DNA from: Usitatibacter palustris
GTDB taxonomy: Bacteria > Pseudomonadota > Gammaproteobacteria > Burkholderiales > Usitatibacteraceae
Direction of reading: 5' to 3'
Length of the DNA: 64,000 bases
Assembly (NCBI RefSeq): GCF_013003985.1
Contig: NZ_CP053073.1
Location: forward strand, 1,054,001-1,118,000
In this document: positions 2,639 to 64,000 of the stretch, one piece after another
Layout: every line of letters begins with the position of its first letter
Numbering within the stretch: the stretch's first letter is position 1
Notes under the pieces: generated by a model
Told to the model about the DNA's origin: nothing
Databases searched by the model: none
What the model saw: the letters and a program-made list of their open reading frames with translations, nothing else
Made by a program: the position numbers and the translations under genes

Positions 2639-3633
2639 CCGCAGCCTGGGCGTCCCTGCACGGATGGGTGTTCGAGAAGCTCGTCGAACCCGTCGTGTTC
2701 GCGCTCGGCCTGTCGACCTACATGGAGCAGGCCTTCGACGCGACCGAGCTCTTCCTCATCGGCGCGTTCGAGGTCGCTACGCTGGCACTCGTGCTCTCGG
2801 CCGTGGAGCGCTGGAAGCCGATCGAGGTGTGGGCCGATCGCAGCCCCGTGCGCACCGACGTGATCTACACGCTCCTGCAGCGCCTGGGCATCGTGCCGCT
2901 GGCCATCTTCATCGCGCTCACGCCCGCCGTGGATGCGCTCGACGGCTGGCTTCGCCTGCACGACATCGTGCCGTGGAAGCTCGAGGACGCCGTGCCCGCG
3001 CTCCACACGCAACCGCTCGCGTCGTTCCTCGTGTATCTCGTGATTCTCGATTTCGTCGCCTACTGGCTGCACCGCGCGCAGCATCGCTTCGAGGCATGGT
3101 GGGCGCTGCACAGCCTGCACCACAGCCAGCGCGAGATGACGTTCTGGACCGACGATCGCAACCACCTGCTCGATGACCTCATCGTCGATGGCTGCTTCGC
3201 GCTGGTCGCGCTCGCCATCGGCGTGCCGCCGATGCAGTTCGCGATGATCCTCGTCGCGACGCGGATCGTGGAGAGCTTCTCGCACGTGAATGCGCGCATC
3301 CATTTCGGCCGGATCGGCGAATGGTTGTTGGTGAGCCCTCGTTTCCACCGCATCCACCACGCCATCGGCCTCGGCCATGAAGGCCGGGTGCGCGGCTGCA
3401 ACTTCGCCACGCTGTTTCCCATCTGGGACCGGCTCTTCGGCACGGCCAATACGGACAATGTGTACCCCGCCACCGGGATCCGCGACCAACTGCACGGCGC
3501 GGACTACGGGGTGGGCTTCTGGCGCCAGCAGGGCCTCGGCCTCGCGCGCCTCGTGCGGGCCTTGCGCGGCGCCGCCACGACTCCCCCCGCGTACCCACGC
3601 GCAACTTCCAATCTTCCGGAATCGACCCCATGA
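2626..3633 (+). CDS. Sterol desaturase / fatty acid hydroxylase family membrane protein
   Basis: This 335-residue membrane protein starts with TTG inside the end of the deacetylase gene (13-base overlap). It has several hydrophobic segments in the first 200 residues and the histidine clusters of the family: HRAQH near residue 148, HSLHH near 162 and HRIHHA near 242, which would bind a di-iron centre. Members hydroxylate or desaturate lipids using oxygen. Which lipid is modified cannot be read from the sequence. It is translationally coupled to both neighbours, since the next gene starts at its stop codon. Confidence 0.87.
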   Translation: METLTAAWASLHGWVFEKLVEPVVFALGLSTYMEQAFDATELFLIGAFEVATLALVLSAVERWKPIEVWADRSPVRTDVIYTLLQRLGIVPLAIFIALTPAVDALDGWLRLHDIVPWKLEDAVPALHTQPLASFLVYLVILDFVAYWLHRAQHRFEAWWALHSLHHSQREMTFWTDDRNHLLDDLIVDGCFALVALAIGVPPMQFAMILVATRIVESFSHVNARIHFGRIGEWLLVSPRFHRIHHAIGLGHEGRVRGCNFATLFPIWDRLFGTANTDNVYPATGIRDQLHGADYGVGFWRQQGLGLARLVRALRGAATTPPAYPRATSNLPESTP

Positions 3634-6119
3634 CCCGCCATCGCCTCCCGCTCGCCGTCGTCTTCGCGGCCGCCGCCTTGTTGCTGCACGTCCCGGGCGC
3701 TGTCGCCTCGGCGCAGGAGATGCCTCCCCGAGCCGCGCTGCCCATCGCGCAGGCGCCGCAGGCATTCCGCCTGCCCAATGCCGCGCCGGCCGAAGCGATC
3801 ACGCTGGGCCGCAACCTGCACAAGGCCACGGGTGCGGCGATGTATCCGGGCGGCCCGCAGTGGGTCGCCACCGTGCGGGCTGCCCCCGTGCCATTCAAGC
3901 TCGCGAGCTGGCGCGCGGTCGACGGCGGCTACGTCACGCGCTTCCGGCTGAGCGCTGAAGGCGCCGAAGGCCTGCGCGCGCGCTTCGACCTGGGCACGGT
4001 GCCCGGCGCAATGGAAGTGCGCGCCGCCGGCGACGACGGCCGCGTGTTCACGATGACGCTCGATCCGATGCTCGGCAACGAAGCCTGGGGACCGTGGACC
4101 GACGGCGCGACGCAGGTCGTTGAAGTGTTCAGCACGGTGCGGCCTTCGGCGGAGGCGCTCACGGTCGGCGCGCTTCTCAACTTCGACGTGGGTCCGACCA
4201 CCAAGGCCGCTGCGAGCTGCACGGTGTCCACACTTTGCTCCACCGGCAACACCGGGACCGATGCCGCGATCGCCGAAGCGAAGAAATCCATCATGCGCAT
4301 CAACGGCGTGGTGGATGGCCGCGGCTTCAACTGCTCGGCCACGCTCATCAACACGGCGAAGTTCCCCGCGGCCTACGTGCTCACCGCGAACCACTGCGTG
4401 AGCACAACCGCCACCGCGGCGAGCCTCACGACGCGCTGGTTCTGGGAAACGACGGCGTGCGACGTCGCCGACGCTTCGACCAGCTTCCAGCAAGTCGCGG
4501 GCGGCATGCAGCTCATCTTCACGAACTTCAACGTCGACTCGACGCTGATGCTCATGAACAGCCCGCCGCCCACCGGCGCGGTGTACTCCGGCTTCAGCAC
4601 GGGCCGCTTGAACGACGGCACGGCCGTGGTGAGCCTCAGCCATCCGGCGGCCGATGCCGCCCGGCAGGCGCGCGGTTCGATGACGGGCCTGATCCGTCCG
4701 AGCACCGAGACGGTGTCGTATCCGCAGGACATGTACGAGGTGATCTTCACCGTCGGAGCAACCGAAGGCGGCTCGAGCGGCTCGGGCCTCTTCGTGCAGC
4801 TGGGCGGCTCGTTGCGCCTCACGGGCATCCTGTTCGGCGGCACGATCGGAGACTCCTGCACGAACCCGCGCGACGGCATCTATTCGCGCTTCGAGATCTT
4901 CCATCCGCAGATTGATCCGTACATCAGCCTCGCCTCGGTGCCCGTCGACGATGCGCCCAACCGCGCGCTCGACATCATCGGCACGCCGCTCGATCCGGTC
5001 GCGGACCTCCCGCTCAACCAGCGCTCCGGCCCGCTCGTGATCGCGGGCAAGCAGATCGGCGCCGCGGGCGATATCGACGTCTATCGCTTCACGCTCTCGC
5101 AGGAGCGCGCGGTCGCGCTCTGGTCGGAAAGCTCGATCGACACGATCGGCACGCTGCTCAACCAGTTCGGTACGGGCCTCGAGTCGAACGACGACGGCCA
5201 GACGAGCAGCCTCGATTTCGGCATCACCCGCTTGCTGCAGGCCGGCACTTACTTCGTGCAGGTTGCGCACTTCGACGGGGACGGTACCGGCGGCTATACG
5301 GTGAAAGCGCAGGCGTACGACGTCGGCTCGAACAACTACTCCGACCTCTGGTGGAATGCCAACGAATCGGGCTGGGGCATCAACCTGAGCCACCAGGGCA
5401 CGGTGATCTTCGCCACGCTCTACACGTACGACACCGACGGCACGCCGATGTGGCTGGTGATGTCCAACGGCGATCGCCAGGCCGACGGCTCCTTCACGGG
5501 CATTCTCTACCGCGTGACCGGCCCCGCGTTCAACGCGAGCCCCTGGGGCCCGATCAACGCCGTGCAGGTGGGCACGATGAGGCTCCGGTTCGACAACGCG
5601 GACCTTGGAACCCTCACGTACACCGTGAACGGCGCGAGCGTCTCGAAGCAGATCAACCGCTATTCCTTCGGCACGGCGCCCACGTGCAAGTGGTCGGTGT
5701 TCGATCGCAGCTTCGCCAACAACGTGCAGGACCTCTGGTGGAATCCCGCCGAGAATGGCTGGGGCATCAACCTCGTGCACCAGGGCAACACGATCTTCGC
5801 GACGCTCTACACCTACGGTCCGGATGGCAAGGCGATGTGGTACGTGATGTCCGCGGGCGCACGCCAGGCCGACGGCACGTTCCGCGGCGCGCTCTATCGC
5901 ACGACAGGCCCCGCGTTCAACGCGAACCCGTGGACGGCGATCAGCAATTTCGAGGTCGGCACGATGACGCTCAAGTTCTACTATCGCGACGACACCACGA
6001 TCTACCCGGGCGGCGGCGGCAACCGCGCGACCCTCACCTATACCGTGAACGGCGTTTCGGTCACCAAGCAGATCCAGCGCTTCGACTTCGCGAACCCGAA
6101 GACCGAGTGCGAACGCTAG
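3630..6119 (+). CDS. Secreted trypsin-like serine protease with PPC domain and tandem Trp-rich repeats
   Basis: The 829-residue protein has a signal peptide (residues 1-29). The protease domain resembles lysyl endopeptidases: catalytic H255 in LTANHC, D303 in NFNVDSTL and S383 in GGSSGSGLF. A PPC-like beta domain spans about 465-560. The C-terminus has two copies of a repeat of about 130 residues starting at about 572 (DLWWNANESGWGINLSHQG) and 701 (DLWWNPAENGWGINLVHQG), each with IFATLYTY and a following W-V-M motif. A variant of this repeat pair is found in the proteins at 58376 and 60471. The start overlaps the preceding stop (ATGA). It is probably a secreted or surface-attached endopeptidase. 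Confidence 0.88.
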   Translation: MTRHRLPLAVVFAAAALLLHVPGAVASAQEMPPRAALPIAQAPQAFRLPNAAPAEAITLGRNLHKATGAAMYPGGPQWVATVRAAPVPFKLASWRAVDGGYVTRFRLSAEGAEGLRARFDLGTVPGAMEVRAAGDDGRVFTMTLDPMLGNEAWGPWTDGATQVVEVFSTVRPSAEALTVGALLNFDVGPTTKAAASCTVSTLCSTGNTGTDAAIAEAKKSIMRINGVVDGRGFNCSATLINTAKFPAAYVLTANHCVSTTATAASLTTRWFWETTACDVADASTSFQQVAGGMQLIFTNFNVDSTLMLMNSPPPTGAVYSGFSTGRLNDGTAVVSLSHPAADAARQARGSMTGLIRPSTETVSYPQDMYEVIFTVGATEGGSSGSGLFVQLGGSLRLTGILFGGTIGDSCTNPRDGIYSRFEIFHPQIDPYISLASVPVDDAPNRALDIIGTPLDPVADLPLNQRSGPLVIAGKQIGAAGDIDVYRFTLSQERAVALWSESSIDTIGTLLNQFGTGLESNDDGQTSSLDFGITRLLQAGTYFVQVAHFDGDGTGGYTVKAQAYDVGSNNYSDLWWNANESGWGINLSHQGTVIFATLYTYDTDGTPMWLVMSNGDRQADGSFTGILYRVTGPAFNASPWGPINAVQVGTMRLRFDNADLGTLTYTVNGASVSKQINRYSFGTAPTCKWSVFDRSFANNVQDLWWNPAENGWGINLVHQGNTIFATLYTYGPDGKAMWYVMSAGARQADGTFRGALYRTTGPAFNANPWTAISNFEVGTMTLKFYYRDDTTIYPGGGGNRATLTYTVNGVSVTKQIQRFDFANPKTECER

Positions 6120-58375: not shown

Positions 58376-60364
58376 ATGAGCCTATACATGCGCACACTTA
58401 CTAGCCTGGTCCTGGCGCTTTGCCTCGCGTACATGAGCGAGTCTGCAGCGCAAATTTCCCACGTTACGGTCAGCAAGGTCATCGAGCACATACAGACCTC
58501 GGCGACCAACGTCATCGTCGATCCGACACCGCCAGGGCCCAACTACGGCGGGCCTTATGGTTTCCACGCCCAGGTCATCGGCCAGAACATCGCCGGAATT
58601 ACCGTTCCCACGTTCAACGGGCCCGTCAACTTCGGCGCGGTGGGCTCCTGGTACAACATGGGGAAGCTCGTCTACGTGGCCGACGAAGGGATCTGGCGCG
58701 CCGGCACCAACGGAAACGACTGGGGATCGCCCAACCAGGCCGACCTCAACTCGAAGTTTCCCAATGGCACCTACACGATGACCGTCAACGGGACGACGGT
58801 TCCGTTGCCGTTGACGGGAGACGCGTATCCCAATGCCCCGGTGCTCACGCTCTCGAGTCCCGGAGGCGCCTGGTCCAACGGCAAGTACGTGTTCGATCCC
58901 AGCCAGCCGCTCACCATCACGACCAGCGGATTCAACGCGTACTCATCGAACATCAATGGCGTCATGGTGATGGGCGGCGACCACATCAACCTGATCGTCC
59001 AGGGCCGCGATGCAACGCCCTCGCCGAACTTCCTCACGAAGACCGTGCCGGCCGGTACCTACACCGCGGGCCAGGAATACGAAGTCGGTGCCGGATTCCA
59101 GGCCATCGTCGGCCTGAACACGAACGCGCTGCCGGGCATCTACAGCTCGGCGCGCTATGAGGTCTACACGAACGTCGCGATCAAGGCGGAGTCTTCGGCA
59201 GCCCCGGTCTTCCCGATGGCGGTCACGAGCACGATCAACGCGACCACGGCCAACGCGACGGCGACGTTCCAGCCGCGTCCCCAGGACGCCGGCACCACGC
59301 GGAGCATCTATGTCTTCGCACTCGCCCCGGCGCCGCGCGTGCTCGGTGTCACCGCGACCACACTGAAAATCGGCGAGACGAAACGCACGGACGGATTGAA
59401 GACCGATGCGGTGCCCTGCGTGCTCGCGCAGCTCAACCAGGCAGGACAGCTCGTCGCCGCTACGGCTTCGTCGCTGGCCGCCTTGAGCACCGGCGTGATC
59501 ACCGCGGCGGGGCAGACGGTGCAGGTGCTCAACAACGTGAGCACGCCCAACGTCGCCGGCGCCACGGTTTACCTCGGCTACGGCCAGACCTCGACGGGCA
59601 TGATCAACGACGGCATCAACCGCAGCGTGGTCACGGTGCCCGGCACGGTCGAGTGCCGCCCCGAGGGTCCGCAAACCGGCTGGTGGTGGAACACCGTCGA
59701 AGGTGGACGCGGCTATTCGATCGAAAAGCAGGGCCGCAACATCTTCATGGCCGCGTACTTCTACGACGCCACGGGTCGCGCGACGTGGCAGGTGGCTTCG
59801 GGGCCGACGTCGTTCGACGGCGCGTACTTCACCGCGCCGCTCTATTCGTGCACGGGTGGGGTCACGCTCGCGGGCGCGTATCGCCCCAACAGCTGCGCCA
59901 CCGCCGGCAACGTGACGCTCTCCTTCAACAACGCGAGCCGCGGCGCGATGATCTGGCCCGGTGGCACGGTCGGCATCGAGCGCTTCAACATCGTCGACAA
60001 CGGGCTGAACGTCGCCCCGCTCGCGAACCAGCCCGAGAACGGCTGGTGGTGGAGCACGGCGGAGAACGGCCGCGGGTACTTCATCGAATGGCAGGGCGGC
60101 ACCGCGGACATCGCGGGCTACATGTACGACGACGTGGGCAATCCGATCTGGTACATCACCGTGATCGCTACGCCCAACCCGCTCGCCATGAATGGTGCCT
60201 GGTGGCAATTCGCCAATGGCATGACCCAGGCGGGTCCCTATCGCGCGGCGACGCGCACCAACGACAACGTGGGTGCGGCGACGATCTCGTTCCAGAGTGC
60301 CACCACTGCCACGATGACGCTGCCGGGCGGGCGGCAGATCGCGCTCACGCGCTTCCGTTTCTAG
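58376..60364 (+). CDS. Secreted protein with C-terminal tandem Trp-rich repeats
   Basis: The 662-residue protein has a signal peptide (starting MSLYMRTLTSLVLALCLAYM; ATG at 58388 is an alternative start). Residues 30-320 are beta-rich with many Asn/Thr/Gly and no known domain. From about 320 to the end it shares a module of some 330-360 residues with the protein at 60471: PCVLAQLNQAGQL, then GWWWNTVEGGRGYSIEKQG at about 435 and GWWWSTAENGRGYFIEWQG at about 556, ending LTRFRF. These repeats relate to those of the protease at 3630. A surface or extracellular role is likely. Confidence 0.8.
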   Translation: MSLYMRTLTSLVLALCLAYMSESAAQISHVTVSKVIEHIQTSATNVIVDPTPPGPNYGGPYGFHAQVIGQNIAGITVPTFNGPVNFGAVGSWYNMGKLVYVADEGIWRAGTNGNDWGSPNQADLNSKFPNGTYTMTVNGTTVPLPLTGDAYPNAPVLTLSSPGGAWSNGKYVFDPSQPLTITTSGFNAYSSNINGVMVMGGDHINLIVQGRDATPSPNFLTKTVPAGTYTAGQEYEVGAGFQAIVGLNTNALPGIYSSARYEVYTNVAIKAESSAAPVFPMAVTSTINATTANATATFQPRPQDAGTTRSIYVFALAPAPRVLGVTATTLKIGETKRTDGLKTDAVPCVLAQLNQAGQLVAATASSLAALSTGVITAAGQTVQVLNNVSTPNVAGATVYLGYGQTSTGMINDGINRSVVTVPGTVECRPEGPQTGWWWNTVEGGRGYSIEKQGRNIFMAAYFYDATGRATWQVASGPTSFDGAYFTAPLYSCTGGVTLAGAYRPNSCATAGNVTLSFNNASRGAMIWPGGTVGIERFNIVDNGLNVAPLANQPENGWWWSTAENGRGYFIEWQGGTADIAGYMYDDVGNPIWYITVIATPNPLAMNGAWWQFANGMTQAGPYRAATRTNDNVGAATISFQSATTATMTLPGGRQIALTRFRF

Positions 60365-60409
60365 GGTCGCCGTCGAATATTCGGCATTTCGGGCGTGAAT
60401 GCGTGAGGT

Positions 60410-60430
60410 CAGGCGTGGGAACCACGCCTG
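60410..60430. repeat. Nine-bp-stem hairpin between two secreted-protein genes
   Basis: CAGGCGTGG-GAA-CCACGCCTG folds into a perfect 9-bp stem with a 3-base loop. It lies about 45 bases after the stop codon of the 58376 gene. There is no T run, so it is a weak or rho-assisted terminator or a transcript stabiliser. Confidence 0.6.
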
Positions 60431-60470
60431 TTGAGGCCAGTCACGCCGACCTGCGACAATGGGTCCTCCC

Positions 60471-63400
60471 ATGCGCACTCCCATCCTCTTCCTAGCGCTC
60501 GCACTGAGCGCCATGCCCGCCTTTGGCGCGACGCCCGCCGTGCGCGCCGGCGCCTTCCACAGCCTGGCGCTCGATGCCGGGGGAACCGTGCGCGCATGGG
60601 GTGACGATTCATCCGGGCAGCTCGGCCAGGGCCGCACGCTGCTCACCGCCTCCGCCGTGACGGTCAGTGGAATCACCGGTGTCGCGAAGATTTCCGCGGG
60701 CGCGAACCACGTCCTCGCGTTGATGAACGACGGCACCGTGCGTTCCTGGGGCCGCAACAGCCAGGGACAGCTCGGCGACGGCACGAACACCAATCGCTCG
60801 ACGCCCGCGCCGGTTTCGGGTCTCACGGGCGTGATCGCGATCGCCGCGGCCACGAATCATTCCATCGCGCTGAAATCCGATGGCACCGTATGGGCCTGGG
60901 GCGTGAACTGGCAGGGCCAACTGGGCAGCGACGCGATCCAGGCCGACGTGCCCGTGCGCGTGAACGGCATCAGTGACGTGGCGAAGATTTCATCGACAGG
61001 CGATCACGTGCTGGTCCTCAAGAACGACGGGACCGTGTGGACGTGGGGGCGCAACGATCTCGGGCAACTGGGCACCGGGACCCCGAGCGACGCTCGCGCG
61101 ACACCCGCGGCCGTGCCCGGACTCACCGGCATCGTCGACATCAGCGCCGGCACGCAGCACAGCATGGCCGTCACGGCCGCGGGCGCGGTGCTCACGTGGG
61201 GCTACAACTACGGCGGCCAGCTCGGCCACAACGAGTCTTCGCAATTCCGCGCGGTGCCGACCGTCGTTCCCGGCATCACCGACGCGGCCGCGGCATCCGG
61301 TGGCATCTATCACTCGTTGGTTCGCGCGCGCGACGGCACCGTGTGGGCATGGGGCATGGGTTACTCGGGCGAGCTCGGCGATGGCCGCTTCACGCCTTCG
61401 ATCACGCCGGTCAAGGTCAGTGGCCTCGCGAACGTCACCGACATTTCCGCCGCCGCGTTCTTCTCGCTTGCGCGCACGAGCGACGGCGCGCTGTGGGCGT
61501 GGGGCAGCAATGCCAGCGGCCAGATCGGCGACGGCACGTCCGAGAATCGCGGCACGCCGGTGCGAGTGATCAGCATTCCCGCGATCGTCGCGATGTCGGC
61601 GGGCGGGGGCCACGGCTTCGCGGTCCCTGCGGACGGCACGGTGCGCGCGTGGGGCGCCAACGATTTCGGCGAGCTGGGCGACGGCGCCAAGCCGCTGCGC
61701 ACGACGCCCGCGCTCGTTCCCGGCGCAACCGGCATCGAAAAGATCGCGGCGGGCGGATTGCACACGCTGGCCGTGAAGGCGGATGGCACCGTCATCGCCT
61801 GGGGCAGCAATTCGCAGGCGCAGCTCGGCGACGGCACGCAGAACTCGCGTTCCACGGCGGGCGCGGTGCGCGTGCTCACGGGTGTGCGCGACGTTGCCGC
61901 CGGCTTCTTCAACTCGTTCGCGCTCAAGACCGACGGCACCGTTTGGTCCTGGGGCTATGCGTGGCAAGGCCTGCTGGGCCACGGCGACGAGGAGCAGCAG
62001 AACGAACCCAAACGAATCGCCGCACTCTCGGGCATCAGCGCGCTCGCCGCGGGCGACTCGCACACGCTCGTGCTCGAGTCCAACGGCGGCGTGCAGTCGT
62101 GGGGCGCCAACGATTCGGGACAACTGGGCAGCGGCAACACCGCGAATCGCTCGTCGCCCGGATTCGTGAACGGACTGACCAGCGTGACCCGGATCGCCGC
62201 GGGCGGCGCGCACTCGCTCGCGTTGCGCACCGACGGCACCGTGTGGGCGTGGGGCAGCAACTACTCGGGCCAGCTCGGAGATGGCACCAACACCGACCGG
62301 CTGGTGCCGGTGCAAGTCCCGGGACTGACGGGCGTCGTTTCCATCGCGGCGGGCAGCTCTTCGTCGTTCGCGATTCGCCAGGACGGCACCGTGTGGGCGT
62401 GGGGCGCGAACTACACCGGGCAGCTCGGCGACGGCGAAGGCTTCGAGCAAGTGCGTCCGGTGCAAGTCACCGGCGTGCGTGGCGTGGCCGAAGTCACCGG
62501 CGGCAGTGTCCACGGCCTGGCGCGCACGACCGACGGCGCCGTGTACGCATGGGGTTTCAGTCCGGATGGACGCGTCGGCGACGGCACGGTCGCCACGCGG
62601 CTCTCGCCGGTGGTCGTCCTGCGCGAAGGCGGCGCGGGTTCGATCGAAGCGAACAACTGGTTCCTCGATCTCGACCCGGCGGTGGCCACGAGCATTCCGG
62701 GCGATAAGGTTCCGGTGTTCCTGCTGGTGACGTCGCGCGGGGGTGCCACGCTCGATGCGAACGTTCGCGCGCGCGCCTCCGACGTCGGCACCAACGCGAG
62801 CTACTTCGTTTTCGTCGTTGCGCCGCAAGCATCGGTGCTCGGTGCCACGAGCTCGATGAAAGTCGTGGGCTACGCGAAGCGCCGCGACGGCAAGGCGGAT
62901 CCCGTGCCGTGCGTGCTCGCGCAATTGAATTCGAACGGCCAGTTGCAGCAGGTCAGTGCCTCGAGCCTCGCGGCCCTGCTCTCGGGGACGCTCACCGCGC
63001 AGGGCCAGACGGTCGCGGTGCTCAACAGTGCCAGCACGGCGCAACTGACGGGCTCGACGGTCTACGTCGGCTACGGCACGAACGCCGCCGCGATGCTCAA
63101 CAGCGGCACGAACCGCAGCGTGGTCTCGGTTCCGGGCAGCGTCGAGTGCAAGCCGCAGCCGCCGCAAACGGGCTGGTGGTGGAACACGGCGGAGGGCGGC
63201 CGGGGCTACTCGATCGAGCAGCAGGGCAACAACCTCTTCATGGCGGCGTACTTCTACGAAGCCGACGGCCGCGCGACGTGGCTGGTTGCCTCCGGTCCTT
63301 CGTCGATCGATGGTTCGCTCTTCACCGCGCCCCTGTATCGCTGCACCGGCGGCGTGACGCTCGCGGGCGCGTACAAGACCAACAACTGCACGGCCAACGG

Positions 63401-63857
63401 TTCGGTGACGCTCGGGTTCACGAGCGCCTCGACGGGAACGATGGTCTGGCCGGGTGGCAACGTCGCGATCGAGCGCTTCGACATCGTGCCCGGGGGCCTC
63501 GCCGCCGCGCCGCAGGCCGGCGTTCCGGAGAGCGGCTGGTGGTGGAGTGCGGCCGAGAACGGCCGCGGCTTCTTCATCGAATGGCAGAACGGGTCGGCCA
63601 ACATCGCGGGCTACATGTACGACGATGCCGGCAATCCCATCTGGTACATCACGGTCGCGCCGACGCCGACCGCGCTCGCGCTCAACAGCACCTGGTGGCA
63701 GTACGCCAACGGACAGACGCAGGGCGGCCCGTACAAGGCGCCGACGCAGGTGAACGGCAACGTCGGGCCGACGACCATCCAGTTCCACGATACGACGACC
63801 GCCACGATGACGATGCCCGGCGGCCGGCAGGTGCCGCTCACGCGCTTCCGTTTCTGA
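60471..63857 (+). CDS. Secreted RCC1-repeat protein with tandem Trp-rich repeats
   Basis: The start at 60471 gives a clean signal peptide (MRTPILFLALALSAMPAFGA); 60459 is an alternative. The 1128-residue protein has 14 RCC1-type repeats of about 50 residues (residues 25 to about 715), each with a core like HSLALRTDGTVWAWGSN followed by GQLGDG, enough for two seven-bladed propellers. The C-terminus from about 790 is the same module as in the 58376 protein, with repeats at about 901 (GWWWNTAEGGRGYSIEQQG) and 1022 (GWWWSAAENGRGFFIEWQN), ending LTRFRF. It probably binds proteins or glycans outside the cell. Confidence 0.87.
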   Translation: MRTPILFLALALSAMPAFGATPAVRAGAFHSLALDAGGTVRAWGDDSSGQLGQGRTLLTASAVTVSGITGVAKISAGANHVLALMNDGTVRSWGRNSQGQLGDGTNTNRSTPAPVSGLTGVIAIAAATNHSIALKSDGTVWAWGVNWQGQLGSDAIQADVPVRVNGISDVAKISSTGDHVLVLKNDGTVWTWGRNDLGQLGTGTPSDARATPAAVPGLTGIVDISAGTQHSMAVTAAGAVLTWGYNYGGQLGHNESSQFRAVPTVVPGITDAAAASGGIYHSLVRARDGTVWAWGMGYSGELGDGRFTPSITPVKVSGLANVTDISAAAFFSLARTSDGALWAWGSNASGQIGDGTSENRGTPVRVISIPAIVAMSAGGGHGFAVPADGTVRAWGANDFGELGDGAKPLRTTPALVPGATGIEKIAAGGLHTLAVKADGTVIAWGSNSQAQLGDGTQNSRSTAGAVRVLTGVRDVAAGFFNSFALKTDGTVWSWGYAWQGLLGHGDEEQQNEPKRIAALSGISALAAGDSHTLVLESNGGVQSWGANDSGQLGSGNTANRSSPGFVNGLTSVTRIAAGGAHSLALRTDGTVWAWGSNYSGQLGDGTNTDRLVPVQVPGLTGVVSIAAGSSSSFAIRQDGTVWAWGANYTGQLGDGEGFEQVRPVQVTGVRGVAEVTGGSVHGLARTTDGAVYAWGFSPDGRVGDGTVATRLSPVVVLREGGAGSIEANNWFLDLDPAVATSIPGDKVPVFLLVTSRGGATLDANVRARASDVGTNASYFVFVVAPQASVLGATSSMKVVGYAKRRDGKADPVPCVLAQLNSNGQLQQVSASSLAALLSGTLTAQGQTVAVLNSASTAQLTGSTVYVGYGTNAAAMLNSGTNRSVVSVPGSVECKPQPPQTGWWWNTAEGGRGYSIEQQGNNLFMAAYFYEADGRATWLVASGPSSIDGSLFTAPLYRCTGGVTLAGAYKTNNCTANGSVTLGFTSASTGTMVWPGGNVAIERFDIVPGGLAAAPQAGVPESGWWWSAAENGRGFFIEWQNGSANIAGYMYDDAGNPIWYITVAPTPTALALNSTWWQYANGQTQGGPYKAPTQVNGNVGPTTIQFHDTTTATMTMPGGRQVPLTRFRF

Positions 63858-63913: not shown

Positions 63914-64000
63914 ATGCGCGCGCACACATCCTGGTCATCACGCTTCACCTCCCTGGCGGCCATGCTCGTGCTGGGCGTGGCGGCGCTCGTGCAATCGGCG
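63914..64000 (+). CDS. Exported protein, N-terminal part only
   Basis: An open frame starts at an ATG preceded by AAAGGA and gives 29 residues (MRAHTSWSSRFTSLAAMLVL, then GVAALVQSA) before the window ends. It reads as a signal peptide. It may belong with the two secreted proteins upstream, but nothing of the mature protein is visible. Confidence 0.6.
   Translation, partial: MRAHTSWSSRFTSLAAMLVLGVAALVQSA

Follow-up and report, generated by a model that had tools for sequence, protein, structure and literature searches.

Unrelated heads on one common tail: a tandem array of predicted exported proteins in Usitatibacter palustris whose C-terminal modules appear to be homogenised by gene conversion

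Introduction

The closest described parallel to the locus reported here is found in Helicobacter pylori, where segment 3 of babA/babB and of homA/homB evolves in concert (PMC2795765). The 5' parts of these genes are divergent and the 3' parts cluster by strain, which has been explained by intragenomic gene conversion (PMC2795765). The carriage of a single C-terminal module by many different exported proteins is also a property of the T9SS C-terminal domains, PEP-CTERM and IPTL-CTERM. RCC1 repeats (PF00415, PF13540, PF25390), which form two of the heads described below, are present in the Legionella RCC1 effectors, which act on Ran (PMC7157520).

Here, we analysed a window of 64,000 nucleotides (G000:C1:1054001-1118000) from the genome of Usitatibacter palustris (G000; 3.96 Mb, one contig), the last part of which holds the beginning of an array of genes for secreted proteins with different N-terminal heads and a common C-terminal tail. 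We refer to these proteins as P1 (head A), P2 (14xRCC1, or R14), P3 (head B) and P4 (7xRCC1), and we compared them with their counterparts in two congeneric species, G002 and G004, the latter being Betaproteobacteria bacterium GR16-43 (CP019169.1). As in H. pylori, the tails cluster by genome in trees and AU tests, and the heads, together with the first tail domain of R14, follow orthology. In contrast to babA/babB, however, the heads are unrelated instead of being diverged versions of one, three or four paralogues are involved, the divergence is that between species, and the shared module was no outer-membrane barrel by any test run. The T9SS, PEP-CTERM and IPTL-CTERM tails also differ from the tail described here, which has no family match, is long and folded, and occurs N-terminally as well.

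Results

The coordinates of the features in the window are collected in Table 1. The start of P2 is either 60459 or, likelier, 60471, and P3 (556 aa) runs past the window to genome position 1119584. The array thus extends beyond P2, with P3 next and P4 8 kb further on, and its members are closely spaced neighbours on one strand with a common tail, that of P4 (seven RCC1 repeats) being 53% identical. A gene for a FecR-TPR-outer-membrane-barrel protein, followed by one for a CHASE2 adenylate/guanylate cyclase, lies directly downstream of P3 (genome 1119589-1124897) and ahead of P4, and this pair is kept beside the array in three species of the genus. A functional tie between the pair and the tail genes was set aside, as the two lie next to each other in this genus alone and the tail genes of genus g3 lack such neighbours.

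Table 1. Features of the tail-gene array in the window
Feature	Position	Strand	Basis
P1, secreted protein, head A and tail, 662 aa	58376..60364	+	ORF; Sec-type signal peptide by eye
Head A of P1, about 250 aa, domain without family match	58454..59203	+	orthologues in other genomes
P1 tail domain 1, about 155 aa, conserved Cys pair C348/C427	59204..59668	+	alignment, AlphaFold2, Cys positions
P1 tail GWWW repeat 1, 8 predicted strands	59669..60031	+	alignment, AlphaFold2
P1 tail GWWW repeat 2, LTRFRF end	60032..60361	+	alignment, AlphaFold2
Palindrome CAGGCGTGG-GAA-CCACGCCTG, between P1 and P2	60410..60430	.	palindrome search of genome
P2, secreted protein, 14 RCC1 repeats and tail	60459..63857	+	ORF, Pfam
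14 RCC1 repeats of P2 (propeller head)	60582..62618 (genome 1114582-1116618)	+	PF00415, 436.7 bits, 14 stretches
P2 tail domain 1	62712..63161	+	BLASTP, alignment
P2 tail GWWW repeat 1	63162..63524	+	BLASTP, alignment
P2 tail GWWW repeat 2	63525..63854	+	BLASTP, alignment
P3 start (signal peptide and beginning of head B)	63914..64000	+	tail 81% identical to P1's

When P1 (58376-60361) was compared with P2 (60459-63854) by BLASTP, residues 267-662 of the former aligned with residues 742-1132 of the latter at 249 of 396 identical positions (63%, 486 bits), and the top score against shuffled P2 sequences (n=200) was 33.9 bits. The first-pass annotation had described the proteins at 58376 and 60471 as nearly colinear over their last 330-360 residues; the colinearity is real and not limited to short motifs, but the common module is longer than stated, comprising 386 residues from about residue 277 of P1 (nt 59204). 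The WWW triplets and identical LTRFRF ends that it had pointed out are present in both proteins, with the triplets at residues 436 and 557 of P1 and 906 and 1027 of P2, a spacing of 121 in each case.

The tail is built of one domain of about 155 aa (domain 1) and two beta-rich repeats of about 110 aa that open with GWWW. The two repeats of P1 are identical at 41 of 103 positions, a level of about 40% that holds for P1 to P3 and falls to 33% in P4. Judged from the sequences, the conserved cysteine pairs would suit an oxidising compartment, and the conserved aromatic residues of the GWWW repeats (W160-162, Y187, W195 and their counterparts) could form the lining of a putative binding site.

Searches with the tail returned nothing from Pfam, with P1 examined to E <= 1 and P3 to E <= 0.1, and P1 hit none of the NCBIfam families at E <= 1, the named sorting tails (T9SS CTD, PEP-CTERM, IPTL-CTERM) included. 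No PHROGs match was found for the tail or for heads A and B, and a sequence profile of the tail gave no match in the PDB up to E 10. AlphaFold2 modelled the tail from 66 sequences with high confidence (mean pLDDT 95.4, pTM 0.91) and with eight strands in each GWWW repeat, and no PDB chain matched this full-tail model at E <= 0.001. Since the predicted fold matches no solved structure, a function for the tail cannot be borrowed from one. The first AlphaFold model, made from four sequences (pLDDT 69), matched DNA sliding clamps and, weakly, nitrophorins and was discarded, and one marginal match of the confident model among viral models (TM 0.12) was set aside. The GWWW repeat resembles calycin-like eight-strand barrels (lipocalin/nitrophorin, APCDD1) in its eight strands over about 110 aa and in the GxW motif at its start, and the low-confidence model gave weak Foldseek matches to such barrels, but the confident full-tail model gives no significant PDB match, and this possible resemblance serves only as a lead. 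We rejected a reading of the LTRFRF C-terminus as an outer-membrane barrel signal, given that repeat 1 ends in the same strand (IERFNIV) and that distant copies run on past it.

The tail module was found by profile search in 25 of 100 relatives, nearly all of them in the same family, and the genomes of several of these carry it at 10-20 places each. It was present in 2 of 274 genomes in an even sample of the class, and scattered copies occur in other Proteobacteria, such as Undibacterium and Andreprevotia. A 3.2-kb contig from a MAG labelled Gemmatimonadota has two tandem tail-bearing ORFs that are 56% identical to the query, and it may be mis-binned betaproteobacterial DNA. The search for further paralogues in the genome, recommended by the first-pass annotation, yielded P3 and P4 as well as about 20 further places with distant GWWW-like repeats. 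The carriers of GWWW repeats include trypsin-like, subtilase, M23, M12B-like, FG-GAP, Ig-like and DUF1800 proteins. There is a second place in the window as well, a secreted trypsin-like protease (3630-6119, + strand) with two distant GWWW-type repeats at its C-terminal end (about 5340-6071). In 96 distinct proteins, a sample biased by the way in which the loci were fetched, the repeats were C-terminal behind a head of >120 aa in 66 cases, near the N-terminus in 27 and internal in 3. The near-N-terminal repeats mostly stand right after the signal peptide and have >60 aa following them.

The N-terminal halves had been read as unrelated, and indeed no BLAST match was obtained between the heads of P1 and P2. 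Searches of Pfam, NCBIfam and PHROGs gave nothing for the head of P1 or for head B of P3. The 14 RCC1 repeats claimed for P2 were recovered by Pfam, as were the seven of P4, which exceed the cut-off at 152.8 bits, and the proposal of exchangeable heads on a shared C-terminal module is borne out by a 386-aa tail on different heads. P2 and P4 resemble the RCC1 family in the repeats themselves, which lie over the Pfam cut-offs, and differ from it in being secreted bacterial propellers fused to a GWWW tail. Unlike for the Legionella effectors (PMC7157520), there is no hint that P2 or P4 acts on Ran, and the signal peptide makes guanine exchange on Ran inside a cell unlikely. A literature search for RCC1 repeats combined with shared secreted C-terminal domains returned nothing apparently related.

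Other secreted RCC1 proteins of the same genome (3054000-3060000 and 3457000-3473000) have a different double-repeat tail, STRGQV...GPSL...NDNW...GVYEV, and at the latter locus this tail is also found on a protein without RCC1 repeats. Like the GWWW tail, it is a C-terminal pair carried by secreted proteins of the RCC1 type and others, but by eye its sequence does not resemble that of the GWWW tail. RCC1 heads are hence joined to two different tails in one genome, a case of mix-and-match building.

Heads A, B and 14xRCC1 have orthologues at the same locus in G002 and G004, where the genes for 14xRCC1, B and A (and 7xRCC1 in G002) are flanked by an ABC-transporter gene on one side and by the FecR-TPR-barrel and CHASE2-cyclase genes on the other. 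The identity of the G000 heads to these orthologues is about 57% for 14xRCC1 and just about 28-36% for B. Orthologues of head A are found in G004 (about 60-62%) and G002, further members of the family, and in a single genome from a different family, G078 (57%). In G078 (contig C222, 1117-1842), head A is part of a 357-aa open frame that is too short for a full tail, and horizontal transfer or a tailless form is possible. Because the same heads are orthologous at the same locus, the head/tail combinations must predate the congeneric species. The order of the heads is A-R14-B in G000 and R14-B-A in G002 and G004, a permutation that could have resulted from recombination between tails.

The tails have another history. 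In trees, the tails of A, B and R14 from G000 form one group apart from their orthologues, and forcing the tails to group by head was rejected for A (AU p 3e-41), B (7e-9) and R14 (1e-8). For R14, the two parts of the tail differ: in domain 1, G002 groups with G004 (97/99) and an R14 clade is not rejected (p 0.21), whereas the GWWW pair follows the genome and an R14 clade is rejected (p 7e-46), with R14 of G004 joining A of G004 and R14 of G002 joining B of G002. Along A and R14 of G004, DNA identity in 40-codon windows reaches 94-95% in repeat 1 compared to 46-71% before it. Gene conversion between tandem tails would be expected to leave just such a mosaic, in which the GWWW pair is the most homogenised unit. 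The clustering of tails by genome and the orthology of the heads are in line with old tails that gene conversion has made alike.

The age of this process was judged from four-fold sites. When the tail of P1 was compared with that of P3, 42/74, 34/62 and 34/53 of these sites were identical, with about 51% expected, at a protein identity of 86-92% in the repeats. Most other tail comparisons were close to the random expectation as well, and a clear excess, of about 3 s.d., was seen mainly for repeat 1 between A and R14 of G004 (49/64, expected 56%) and between A and B of G002 (43/57, expected 54%). With four-fold sites this close to chance, the resemblance of the P1 tail to that of P3 is no recent one in terms of DNA, and the homogenisation in G000 is therefore old. 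With these sites near saturation, conversion in G000 follows from the proteins and not from fresh identical tracts.

Discussion

On balance, we lean towards an explanation in which four exported proteins with different heads carry one common tail that is homogenised by conversion and has a docking or binding role. Heads A, 14xRCC1, B and 7xRCC1 are fused to the same C-terminal module in P1, P2, P3 and P4, and the trees and the mosaic argue strongly for intragenomic gene conversion between the tandem tails. We are less firm about the remaining steps. The signal peptides, recognised by eye, suggest that the inner membrane is crossed by Sec, and exit by a type II system is conceivable, as GspD secretins are found over the cut-off at two places in the genome. 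The GWWW pair may fold into a module for docking or binding, by which the different heads are held at one and the same target outside the cell, candidates being a surface polymer, the outer membrane or the matrix, and such a role would keep the tail copies alike while the heads diverge. As a tentative extension, which we regard as possible more than probable, the GWWW pair might be an uncatalogued, widely dispersed docking domain through which unrelated exoproteins reach one target, with conversion keeping the array copies alike in specificity.

The first-pass annotation had instead proposed a recent C-terminal duplication with domain swapping, in which a tail-coding segment was copied not long ago onto a different head. 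Tandem genes with unrelated heads and tails that are 63-81% identical would agree with this, but two congeneric species hold the same head/tail combinations, and these orthologous pairs in G002 and G004 largely refute the idea. It would further require a separate tail exchange by all three head types in each lineage, and at four-fold sites the identity of the tails is close to that expected by chance, making a recent event very improbable. Tails could also become alike within a genome through co-adaptation to one lineage-specific partner, without any exchange of DNA. This could mimic part of the pattern, and the combination of mostly near-saturated four-fold sites and high protein identity in the P1/P3 repeats is in its favour. 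However, the four-fold excess in repeat 1 of G004 A/R14 and G002 A/B, the switch in the R14 phylogeny at the border between domain 1 and the GWWW pair, and the windows of up to 94-95% DNA identity between A and R14 of G004 speak for an exchange of DNA, and we find co-adaptation by itself quite unlikely.

Two further alternatives concern what the tail does. It might be a C-terminal sorting or secretion signal read by a dedicated apparatus that perhaps also cleaves it, in a role like that of a T9SS CTD or PEP-CTERM. The C-terminal position behind a head in 66 of the 96 proteins and the many unrelated types of cargo fit such a signal, but the GWWW module occurs at either end of proteins, with 27 of the 96 bearing it near the N-terminus, and a C-terminal sorting signal is therefore unlikely. 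The tail is also a confidently predicted folded module of 386 aa instead of a short signal, it matches none of the NCBIfam sorting tails, and RCC1 heads in the same genome are found on a different double-repeat tail too. Alternatively, the tail could serve for multimerisation or as a stalk, by which the different heads would be brought together in mixed complexes at the surface. Self-association would suit the homogenised repeats, and the array does place genes with a common tail close together on one strand, yet many single copies lie outside arrays, and we give this reading a low probability. The docking or binding role stays the one that we prefer for the homogenised tail, and the surface display or binding module suggested by the first-pass annotation would be plausible.

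What is new here is an uncatalogued domain, set in a modular architecture of a familiar kind. The domain family has no match in Pfam, NCBIfam or solved structures and recurs on many secreted proteins of one betaproteobacterial family, and its fold is predicted with high confidence. The array is also a clear case in which genes with unrelated heads have a common half that is made uniform within each genome and heads that are retained, and trees made from whole sequences of such proteins mix two histories. If the docking reading is true, the tail would be a shared plug with interchangeable tools.

The palindrome between P1 and P2 (60410-60430) is perfect, with 9-bp arms, and is the sole such place in the genome. 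It is a candidate attenuator or regulator site.
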